Assembly (NCBI RefSeq): GCF_020005365.1
Contig: NZ_JACNML010000008.1
Span: forward strand, 1 to 64,000
DNA length: 64,000 nt
Direction: 5' to 3'
Source of the DNA: Kangiella shandongensis
GTDB taxonomy: Bacteria; Pseudomonadota; Gammaproteobacteria; Enterobacterales; Kangiellaceae
Shown here: positions 51,829 through 54,068 of the stretch, piece after piece
Numbering within the stretch: the first letter of the stretch is position 1
Layout of the letters: each line of letters opens with the position of its first letter
The notes under the pieces: model-generated
The model's input: the letters and a program-made list of their open reading frames with translations, nothing else
Told to the model about the DNA's origin: nothing
Databases searched by the model: none
Position numbers and translations under genes: made by a program

Positions 51829-52632
51829 ATGAATAAAACACCGATTATTATTAACGCCTGTACTGGACGTATGGGTAAAGAGTTATTAGCAGCAACACTT
51901 AATGAACCAGACGCAGAGCTGATATCCGCTATTGCCCGTCAGGGCCATCCAATGGTCGGCACCGACGTGGCTTTTTTGGTTGGCACAGAGCCGCAAGGTA
52001 TTTTTGTTGGGGATGATTTGTCGCAGGCGTTATCCCAAGACAAAATTGTTATTGATTTCAGTTTACCCGAGTATTCTATCCGCAGCCTGAATCAGGCCGT
52101 GGCTGCTAAAGCGGCTATGGTGATTGGTACCACGGGCTATAGTCCGGAACAATTACAGCAAATTGAAAATGCCGCTGAAGAAATTCCTATCGTTTTTGCC
52201 GCGAACTACTCTATCGGGATTAATAGTCTGATTGGCCTGGTCAAGCAGGCAACTCAATTGCTGGGTCACAAGTCGGATATTGAAATCTTTGAAGCGCACC
52301 ATAAGCATAAAAAAGACGCTCCCTCGGGAACGGCGTTAGCGCTGGGCGAAGCCGTGGCTGAAGAACGGGGTAAAAAACTCAGCGATATCGCCGAGTGGGC
52401 GCGGCACGGTGAGTCACCAAGGCAGGAAGGAAGTGTTGGCTTCTCCGTTATGCGCGCCGGCGATATCGTCGGAACGCACGATGTGGTTTTTGCCCTAAAT
52501 GGTGAGGTGGTGACTCTTCGTCATGAGGCGCAGTCGCGTCAGTGTTTTGCCAGCGGTGCGGTGGTTGCTGCTCAATGGTTAGAAGGCAAAGCACCTGGTT
52601 TATACAGTATGCAAGACGTCCTTGGCTTATAG
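51829..52632 (+). CDS. dapB: 4-hydroxy-tetrahydrodipicolinate reductase
   Basis: A 267-residue enzyme of lysine/diaminopimelate synthesis. The dinucleotide loop is ACTGRMGKELL (here with ACTGRMG in place of the common GAAGRMG), then FSLPEYSIRSLNQAVAAKAAMVIGTTGYS, and EAHHKHKKDAPSGTAL, with the catalytic His pair and Lys. The ATG at 51829 has GAAGAG 6 bases upstream; a GTG at 51802 overlaps the previous gene and is less likely. It is normally next to carA; here the two are separated by 1.6 kb with an RNA gene and another coding gene. Confidence 0.95.
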   Translation: MNKTPIIINACTGRMGKELLAATLNEPDAELISAIARQGHPMVGTDVAFLVGTEPQGIFVGDDLSQALSQDKIVIDFSLPEYSIRSLNQAVAAKAAMVIGTTGYSPEQLQQIENAAEEIPIVFAANYSIGINSLIGLVKQATQLLGHKSDIEIFEAHHKHKKDAPSGTALALGEAVAEERGKKLSDIAEWARHGESPRQEGSVGFSVMRAGDIVGTHDVVFALNGEVVTLRHEAQSRQCFASGAVVAAQWLEGKAPGLYSMQDVLGL

Positions 52633-52689
52633 GTAAAAACGCTGACTAGCCAGGGTTGAGTAGTTTTTTGAGAGATTGGCTATAAATGT

Positions 52690-52707
52690 TGTAAGAGATC
52701 TCTCAAT
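52690..52707 (+). promoter_or_regulatory. GacA/UvrY-type upstream activating box
   Basis: TGTAAGagATctCTCAAT matches the GacA box consensus (TGTAAGNNATNNCTTACA) at 11 of 14 defined positions, with the left half perfect. It is about 170 bases before the predicted start of the RNA, which is the position known for rsmY/rsmZ/csrB UAS sites. Confidence 0.6.
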
Positions 52708-52833
52708 GATTTGTAATCTGGGGCTAAGTTTAGGGTCAGATATTAGAGGTTTTAAGCTACAAAAATAGGTTAACCTGTTGTTTTATAGGTATATTTTAAT
52801 TGTTTCTGGCAATGGACTGGTTATTTTTGTGGC

Positions 52834-52861
52834 TTGCGAACAGTGATAAAAGGCGTAAAGT
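52834..52861 (+). promoter_or_regulatory. Core promoter of the CsrB-like RNA
   Basis: TTGCGA and TAAAGT, separated by 16 bases, form a plausible sigma-70 promoter. The transcript would start near 52868, immediately before the first GGA-bearing hairpin. Confidence 0.5.
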
Positions 52862-52867
52862 AATAGT

Positions 52868-52990
52868 TGTGCAAGGGACGCACGCAGGGAATACTAGCCG
52901 AAGGACTTGGTGAAACAAGGAAGTAGCAGGGAGCACTTTAAAGAGGCATGAAGCCACTCGAAAATGGGCGGGATTACCGCCCTTTTTCTT
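52868..52990 (+). ncRNA. CsrB/RsmZ-like CsrA-sequestering small RNA
   Basis: A predicted RNA of about 120 nt without open frame. It has GGA motifs at 52876, 52888, 52903, 52919 and 52930, with a sixth in the terminator loop. Three are held in the loops of small hairpins: GTGC-aaGGGAc-GCAC, CCGA-aGGAc-TTGG and GTaGC-aGGGA-GCAC. This is how CsrA/RsmA binds its titrating RNAs. It ends in a terminator (GGGCGG-gatta-CCGCCC, then five T). A GacA-type box and a promoter lie upstream. The family would modulate carbon storage, biofilm or motility via CsrA. Sequence alone suggests this; no homolog was compared. Confidence 0.65.
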
Positions 52991-53009
52991 TTATGGGTTC
53001 CTAAAAATA

Positions 53010-54068
53010 ATGAATAAATATCTTTATCCCAACGGTTCAGAGAAGAAATGCAGTTTTTGTGAAGCTCTTATAGGTGTTTTATATATCATAATTATTGCTG
53101 CAATTACCTGGGGTATCGTAGATTTTATTATCACCTTCTTTACAGAGCGTGGCTCATTCGGTTATTGGCTATCAACGATAATCTGGTCTGGGTGGTTCGG
53201 TTGTGTTGCTCTGTACTACTCTTTGCGGGATGCCTTACCAATGTTGGCTATAAAAGCCAGTAAGCTGGTAATTTATAAAGGTCTAGTCACTAGAGATAAA
53301 GTTTCATTAGACGATATTCAATACATAGAAATCGAATGTCACAATGAAACAGGAGTCCAAATACTCATTACCCTAACTATTAATAGTAAGTTTTACGCTG
53401 AAATTACTGATAATACCTGCAGTATTAGACAGTTTAGCACCTTCTGCAGGAAATATGTTCCTAGGCTAAAAATCAAGTCAAATTATATGTTAACACCTGA
53501 ATCAGAGGGCACTAGTAGTGGTTCTTGTGACTTAGATACTTGTACTGAGGAGGACTTATTTAATCAATTGGATTTGGCAAATTCTGTGGGGAATGACGAA
53601 TTAGCCTTGAGAATACTACATTGCCTGAAGGAGAAAGAGTATTTTGTCGATGGTTTTATGGGAGATATCTACTTAAACAGTGGGGGAGAGTTTAACGATA
53701 AGAAGGCCCTGCAAAAGTATGGAGAAGGGTACTCCAAAGGAGATGTGCATGCTGCTATTGGCCTAGGAAGAATGTATTTTCATGGCATCGAAGTTGAGGA
53801 AGATGAAAAGACAGCCTTAAAGTACTTCCAATTTGCTAGAGGGTATCGCTCTGGAAATTTATATTATTATTTAGGCTTATACCACTTTAATGGCATGTGC
53901 GGCATTGAGAAAAACATTCAAATGGCAAGGTATCTATTTAAAAAAGCAATAGTTTATGGCGTACCAGAAGGTTATACCGGTTTGGCATTGATTGAGCGTG
54001 AAAATCGTAACTTCTGTAAGATGTTTAGTCTGACTCTAAAACAAGTAAAAGCTGAGCAACTTTCATAG
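53010..54068 (+). CDS. Membrane protein with Sel1-like repeats
   Basis: A 352-residue protein with two N-terminal transmembrane helices (residues 20-46 and 54-75), a PH-like middle part (LVIYKGLVTRDKVSLDDIQYIEIE) and a C-terminal region of Sel1-type repeats (about 225-335: AAIGLGRMYFHGIEVEEDEKTALKYFQFARGY and YYYLGLYHFNGMCGIEKNIQMARYLFKKAI). Sel1 repeats mediate protein binding. The gene is visibly AT-rich compared with dapB and carA on either side, and it interrupts a common gene order, so it may have been acquired. It starts 20 bases after the RNA terminator. Confidence 0.65.
   Translation: MNKYLYPNGSEKKCSFCEALIGVLYIIIIAAITWGIVDFIITFFTERGSFGYWLSTIIWSGWFGCVALYYSLRDALPMLAIKASKLVIYKGLVTRDKVSLDDIQYIEIECHNETGVQILITLTINSKFYAEITDNTCSIRQFSTFCRKYVPRLKIKSNYMLTPESEGTSSGSCDLDTCTEEDLFNQLDLANSVGNDELALRILHCLKEKEYFVDGFMGDIYLNSGGEFNDKKALQKYGEGYSKGDVHAAIGLGRMYFHGIEVEEDEKTALKYFQFARGYRSGNLYYYLGLYHFNGMCGIEKNIQMARYLFKKAIVYGVPEGYTGLALIERENRNFCKMFSLTLKQVKAEQLS

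Follow-up and report, generated by a model that had tools for sequence, protein, structure and literature searches.

The spacer behind dapB in the 64-kb stretch of the Kangiella shandongensis genome analysed here (64,000 nucleotides, hereafter the window) very likely carries the gene of an RsmZ/CsrB-type small RNA that would be activated by GacA and would titrate CsrA, a reading to which we give a probability of about 0.93. The sequence elements are present, they are conserved among relatives with compensatory changes in base pairs, and the genome encodes csrA, gacA and barA. An initial annotation had placed an RNA gene, a GacA box and GGA motifs at this locus, and letter by letter all of them were found where it had put them (Table 1). 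dapB ends at 52632, and the RNA is preceded by a conserved promoter and closed by a conserved terminator, with no open reading frame of at least 80 aa found within it. These features would make it a free-standing non-coding gene, and the terminator scan and the frame search agree with the strong terminator and lack of an open frame noted earlier.

Table 1. Features of the probable RNA gene and its upstream control region in the window.
Feature	Position	Strand	Description
Left UvrY/GacA-type box	52667..52684	+	TTTGAGAGATTGGCTATA; aligned in 19 loci; mean pairwise identity 0.72 in 18 Kangiella loci
Right UvrY/GacA-type box	52690..52707	+	TGTAAGAGATCTCTCAAT; box of the initial annotation; identity 0.72 over 52690-52706 in 18 Kangiella loci
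IHF-like site (putative)	52771..52783	+	TAACCTGTTGTTT, one mismatch to YAANNNNTTGATW; identity 0.65
Promoter	52834..52861	+	TTGCGA, 16 bp, TAAAGT; identity 0.64 for the -35/-10 region
RsmZ/CsrB-type small RNA (probable)	52868..52990	+	~123 nt, start inferred; conserved in 20 loci
Hairpin 1	52868..52884	+	Loop AAGGGAC with GGA 1; alignment columns 3-7/16-20 98% paired; two pairs changed on both sides
GGA 2	52888..52890	+	Linker; kept in 20/20 loci
Hairpin 2	52897..52911	+	GGA 3 in loop; alignment columns 38-41/49-52 100% paired; changes on both sides in one pair
GGA 4	52919..52921	+	Linker; kept in 20/20 loci
Hairpin 3	52923..52936	+	GGA 5 in loop AGGGA; GC/GC stem invariant; AGGGA or AAGGA loop in 20 loci
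Hairpin 4	52945..52955	+	GGC-AUGAA-GCC, without GGA in this genome; two pairs changed on both sides
Intrinsic terminator	52960..52990	+	A-tract, GGGCGGGATTACCGCCC, U-tract; from terminator scan

Conservation was assessed by a DNA search with positions 52660-53000 as query in 61 genomes, namely the K. shandongensis genome itself (G000; 2.8 Mb in 26 contigs), 19 others of the genus, one from another genus of the same family (G020), 16 further genomes of the family and 24 related at the level of the order. Kangiella is a gammaproteobacterial genus of the family Kangiellaceae, and the genus set was defined by relatives of dapB, the nearest of which belong to Kangiella spongicola, K. taiwanensis and other Kangiella genomes. 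Matches were obtained in 20 of the 61 genomes: the own genome, 18 of the 19 others of the genus, and G020. The Kangiella genome without a match to the locus, G002, is 55% complete. At the DNA level, none of the 16 further genomes of the family and none of the 24 order-level genomes matched.

The RNA is conserved from end to end in the alignment of these 20 loci, and in the RNAalifold consensus structure 98.7% of cells are paired. Six of its 24 pairs were changed on both sides, a count that none of 500 shuffles equalled; alignments slid against the structure gave zero to two such pairs, a control in which the consensus structure is favoured because it was drawn from the same alignment. By the measure of further pair types, 18 of 500 shuffles reached the observed value. 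Seven of the ten terminator pairs are invariant, one is compensated and two have an unpaired cell. The terminator stem itself was placed at 52966-52982 by the scan.

GGA motifs lie at 52876, 52888, 52903, 52919, 52930 and 52971, the last of them in the terminator loop. The five core motifs are kept in all 20 loci, but the terminator-loop motif, which the initial annotation had listed in addition to five, occurs in just seven. Three of the five sit in loops of the consensus structure, as had been proposed, on stems that are either compensated or invariant. Hairpin 3 gives no support by covariation because its stem pairs never vary. In the minimum free energy fold of the single sequence (z-score of -2.77 against shuffles), two of the three GGA-loop hairpins, hairpins 1 and 3, are formed together with the terminator; hairpins 2 and 4 are absent, and part of GGA 3 and 4 is paired. 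The ATG of hairpin 4 is AAG in three loci (L018, L020 and L021), and at the position of this hairpin the G020 locus (L022) reads GGTTCGGAGGAACC, with a GGA in the loop.

Upstream of the RNA, the GacA box was confirmed at about 170 bp before the predicted start, but it is not solitary: it has a partner to its left, and the two boxes of this tandem pair are 23 bp apart from start to start, with centres near -192 and -169 relative to the inferred RNA start. In the 18 Kangiella loci, the identity of 0.72 within the boxes drops to 0.43 between the right box and the -35, a stretch that includes the IHF-like site, and in the alignment the boxes, the IHF-like site and the promoter stand out as islands of conservation in drifting DNA. 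With YAANNNNTTGATW, which we take to be the IHF consensus, sites with at most one mismatch were found in 14 of 19 loci, each 62-63 bp ahead of the -35, and were absent in the other five; shuffles lead one to expect 3.5 loci with a match anywhere in the stretch, and five of the 14 loci have another match elsewhere. The -35/-10 pair described just upstream of the RNA stands as far as its key bases are concerned, since TTG in the -35 and TA.A.T in the -10 do not vary across the 20 aligned loci, but the sigma-70 consensus scan listed no promoter at this locus. With tandem boxes conserved and gacA present in the genome, GacA/UvrY may bind here and activate the gene.

The arrangement resembles that of known csr genes. 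In E. coli, the inverted repeat of csrB, TGTGAGAGATCTCTTACA, is 18 nt long and has its centre at -183/-182; 5 bp downstream of it comes a partial site, a putative IHF site lies between the partial site and the promoter, and full binding requires both IHF and phosphorylation of UvrY (PMC4682653). The left box of two Kangiella loci (L018 and L021) reads TGTGAGACATTGACCATT and is letter-identical to the Salmonella csrC site given in the same source. A Legionella LetA consensus was not found in the accessible part of PMC5338858.

The regulatory partners named in the initial annotation as a check, csrA and gacA, were both found in the own genome, together with a BarA kinase. CsrA is encoded by two copies (121.3 bits against a cut-off of 73) about 1.2 kb apart (G000:C26:77955-79335, L103) which, by reading of the neighbouring frame, sit behind alaS. 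The gene occurs in 20/20 genus genomes and in 59 of the 61 genomes in all; G020, which is 73% complete, is one of the two in which it was not found. Apart from the own genome, only G010 of the 19 others of the genus has two copies. Scans of the own genome identified a GacA/UvrY protein (NF007018, 326 bits against a cut-off of 280), whose gene is followed by a scanned uvrC and then by a putative pgsA read from its frame without a scan, and a BarA kinase (NF008318, 937.6 bits against 890) with sCache, HAMP (under its Pfam cut-off), HisKA, HATPase, receiver and Hpt domains. The HU/IHF family gave four matches in this genome, each of which may be HU or IHF.

At the gathering threshold, Rfam gave no match in the whole 64-kb window. 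Among 4227 families, the best match of the region was PrrB_RsmZ (RF00166), which aligned over its full length (model positions 1-133; E 0.042 in a 1-kb search), so the covariance check that had been proposed returned one of the expected families on top, but at 19.6 bits against a gathering threshold of 44. Scores of the listed Kangiella homologues ranged from 18.5 to 29.4 bits, the best being that of L017, and a tandem partner of the RNA in G020 reached 38.1 bits. Because these scores stay under gathering, we class the RNA as RsmZ-like and not as a member of RF00166 as curated. The CsrB family (RF00018, gathering 71) was likewise not reached, with 20.1 bits in L018 and 21.9 bits in L019, and in the window region no CsrB match was kept at E up to 10, one lower-scoring overlapping match of the clan being omitted. 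When the 19 other loci were scanned at E up to 5, 14 of them gave 15 matches, all to PrrB_RsmZ or CsrB and located on the RNA itself or on the tandem partner in L022; none exceeded gathering, and most had E >0.1. No clan match was obtained at this E in L005, L007, L008, L012 and L015. When the whole genome was searched with RF00166 at E up to 10, a limit at which 12 of 14 control genomes gave matches too, only another locus, on contig C21, was listed; the RNA of the window was missed owing to its divergence from the family.

We also built a covariance model, R1, solely from the 20 loci and ran it on 80 genomes with Infernal's stricter filters. The loci from which it was built came out at E <=5e-19, followed by weaker matches; at E up to 1, at least 62 of the 80 genomes had a match among the matches listed, and several of the weaker ones covered just a terminator or lay on the strand opposite a true locus. 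As evidence we used the top 20 loci and ten weaker loci checked against Rfam (L124-L133; E 1e-7 to 2e-4). For eight of these ten (L124-L130 and L133) there is an overlapping Rfam match to CsrB or PrrB_RsmZ, and in L130 and L133 the CsrB match exceeds gathering; two (L131 and L132) have no such overlap. R1 thus reaches recognised CsrA-sponge RNAs that were unseen in its building.

The gene neighbourhood is of interest for the question of whether the RNA is a gene of its own. Its location between dapB and a Sel1 gene, as first described, holds for this genome, where a Sel1-repeat frame (53010-54068) follows the RNA and separates it from carA; among the loci compared, this frame was matched here alone. 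All 17 other Kangiella loci with both flanks have the order dapB-RNA-carA without it. This constant position is what favours the reading that the element is a cis-acting leader or attenuator of whichever gene follows (in most Kangiella carA), or a piece of the dapB 3' UTR, its GGA motifs binding CsrA on that mRNA only. The RNA has its own promoter, distant boxes that are conserved and a strong terminator; the next gene in the window is Sel1, and carA was not found in the fetched loci of G020 (L022) or of G049, a genome from another family (L124). Moreover, G020 carries two copies of the RNA in tandem right behind dapB (L022 1033-1593). We therefore rejected the leader reading on the strength of promoter, terminator and changed neighbours, and consider it improbable. 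G049 in turn has two CsrB-clan matches right behind dapB (L124 1418-2157; 24.1 and 39.3 bits, under gathering), each with a near-perfect UvrY box. Such paired Csr/Rsm-type RNAs behind dapB in G049 and G020 suggest an old dapB-linked locus.

Two other readings are less probable still. The element could be a base-pairing small RNA unrelated to CsrA in which the GGA repeats are incidental, and stretches outside the GGA motifs are indeed conserved, such as GAAAA ahead of the terminator and GGTG behind hairpin 2. Against this, the GGA sites have been conserved jointly with their hairpins, the boxes are of the csrB/csrC type, and csrA, gacA and barA are present, which makes it highly unlikely. Least probable is that no RNA gene exists at all and common motifs have come together by chance, a reading that could draw on the weak statistics of the single sequence. 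Dinucleotide-shuffled versions of the RNA hold 4.2 GGA on average, and 16.7% of them reach the six observed, although at least six occur in just 0.4% of same-length windows on the + strand across the 64 kb. The right box has three mismatches to TGTAAGN6CTTACA; the window holds 25 sites of this quality where 27 would be expected, and the pattern was discarded as useless for detection on its own; the sigma-70 scan, as noted, was silent. The remark that each element alone is common was thus borne out, and since neither the GGA count nor the box alone beats chance, the case rests on conservation. It is the conservation and the compensatory changes over 20 loci that leave chance assembly with hardly any probability. 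The conserved GGA loops and boxes, the compensatory pairs and the partner genes instead support the assignment to the CsrB/RsmZ type with which the locus was first annotated, including its expectation that loops and box would be conserved in relatives.

Many gammaproteobacteria have two or more RNAs of this kind. The box pattern was searched in the own genome with at most three mismatches, giving 11 sites against 16 in a reversed control. Beside the site in the window, six were inspected (L135-L139 and L141), L140, L142 and a site on C25 being left out and L143 being the C24 site on the other strand; a GGA-rich stretch ending in a terminator was found only at C24 (L138). At another of the inspected sites (L137, G000:C23:28509), the GacA-box-like sequence TGTAAGCTATCTCTTAA lies about 175 bp ahead of an apparent protein-coding start, possibly as a direct GacA target or by chance.

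The C24 locus (G000:C24:107219-107560; L138 1501-1850) lies behind an NAD-kinase-like frame. Its box, TGTAAGAGATCTCGCAC, precedes IHF-like and promoter-like stretches, seven GGA and a terminator. It could be aligned from 14 genomes, the own and 13 of the 19 others of the genus. Not counted as homologues were terminator-only matches of 26-40 bp (G011, G016, G017, G018, G042 and G044), and the search for this locus matched only the upstream gene in G003 and G012 and only a box-like stretch in G018. The palindrome TTGTGCGAGATCTCGCACAA is found in six of the 14 loci, and ATCTACAAATCG, a stretch outside the GGA motifs, is invariant in all 14 and predicted to be unpaired, which suggests that this RNA may have a second, base-pairing role. 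The locus was not listed in the genome-wide RF00018 and RF00166 searches, and an Rfam scan of four C24 loci gave no match on the same strand; a below-cut-off STnc130 match lay on the opposite strand of L162.

The third locus (G000:C21:58236-58476, minus strand; L148) lies behind a glutaminase gene and is of the CsrB type. It matches the CsrB model at full length (34.4 bits against gathering 71, E 8.4e-8; at E up to 10 this model matched in eight of 14 control genomes, over the cut-off in one), has 15 GGA and carries the box TGGACAATCTCTTACA, read on the other strand and recognised by eye in seven of nine aligned loci. All four C21 loci that were scanned gave CsrB, at 32.7-35.6 bits. In several relatives an apparent coding start follows soon after the RNA, so it could also be a leader. 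In one Kangiella locus (L182 3240-3367), a TwoAYGGAY match (RF01731, clan CL00106; 51.5 bits against gathering 43) was observed about 1.3 kb behind the CsrB-like RNA. R1 does not find the C24 and C21 RNAs, as the sole locus of the own genome among the matches listed is that of the window. Given these two loci beside the RNA of the window, Kangiella probably has three Csr/Rsm-type RNAs.

Compared with known systems, the RNA is closest to RsmZ/PrrB (RF00166), with 123 nt against 133 model positions, full-length alignment, GGA motifs and a terminator, and differs in its low score. CsrB/RsmB (RF00018) belongs to the same Rfam clan (CL00106) and shares the promoter layout of a UvrY box near -180, a partial second site and an IHF site (PMC4682653), and the C21 RNA matches its model at full length, albeit under gathering; however, with 356 positions this model has about three times the length, and no CsrB match is listed for the RNA of the window. 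As in the GacS/GacA-Rsm and BarA/UvrY-Csr circuits, a kinase, a regulator, CsrA and box-bearing RNA genes are all present, whereas details of the Kangiella box differ, the tandem boxes are 23 bp apart, and csrA is duplicated in the own genome.

In the mechanism we propose, a signal would act on the BarA/GacS kinase, which would phosphorylate GacA/UvrY; GacA would bind the tandem boxes some 170-190 bp upstream, and IHF would bend the DNA at the site between boxes and promoter. Transcription would start near 52868 and end at the terminator at about 52990. GGA in hairpin loops is the core of CsrA sites, and one CsrA dimer bridges two sites of one RNA (PMC7652899). Together, the three GGA sites in hairpin loops and the two in linkers could hold several CsrA dimers and by inference would suit two or three; with CsrA held by the RNA, its mRNA targets would be freed.

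We found no report of a Csr/Rsm RNA in Kangiella in the open-licence literature, a search mostly outside subscription journals. RsmA RNAs have been predicted by machine learning in a study whose main text, as far as it was accessible, does not name Kangiella (PMC5568370), and an earlier sequence-based search with GacA sites, cited there, may contain a Kangiella prediction. In the literature covered, this regulator, itself of a known kind, is new for Kangiella. A wider scenario, in which Csr/Rsm RNAs have long resided in the dapB spacer across families, Kangiella has a three-RNA GacA-IHF-CsrA circuit, and the C24 RNA has a second, base-pairing role beside CsrA titration, is speculative, and we think it rather unlikely to hold in full.

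Taken together, a conserved RNA next to dapB very probably soaks up CsrA once a two-component signal switches its gene on. For Rfam, the 20 aligned loci could serve directly as the seed of a new model or of an improved one. The finding would add Kangiella to the bacteria with a GacA-CsrA circuit and this promoter layout. In the window, Rfam is silent at its curated threshold, and the locus would make global regulation in these marine bacteria accessible to experiment.
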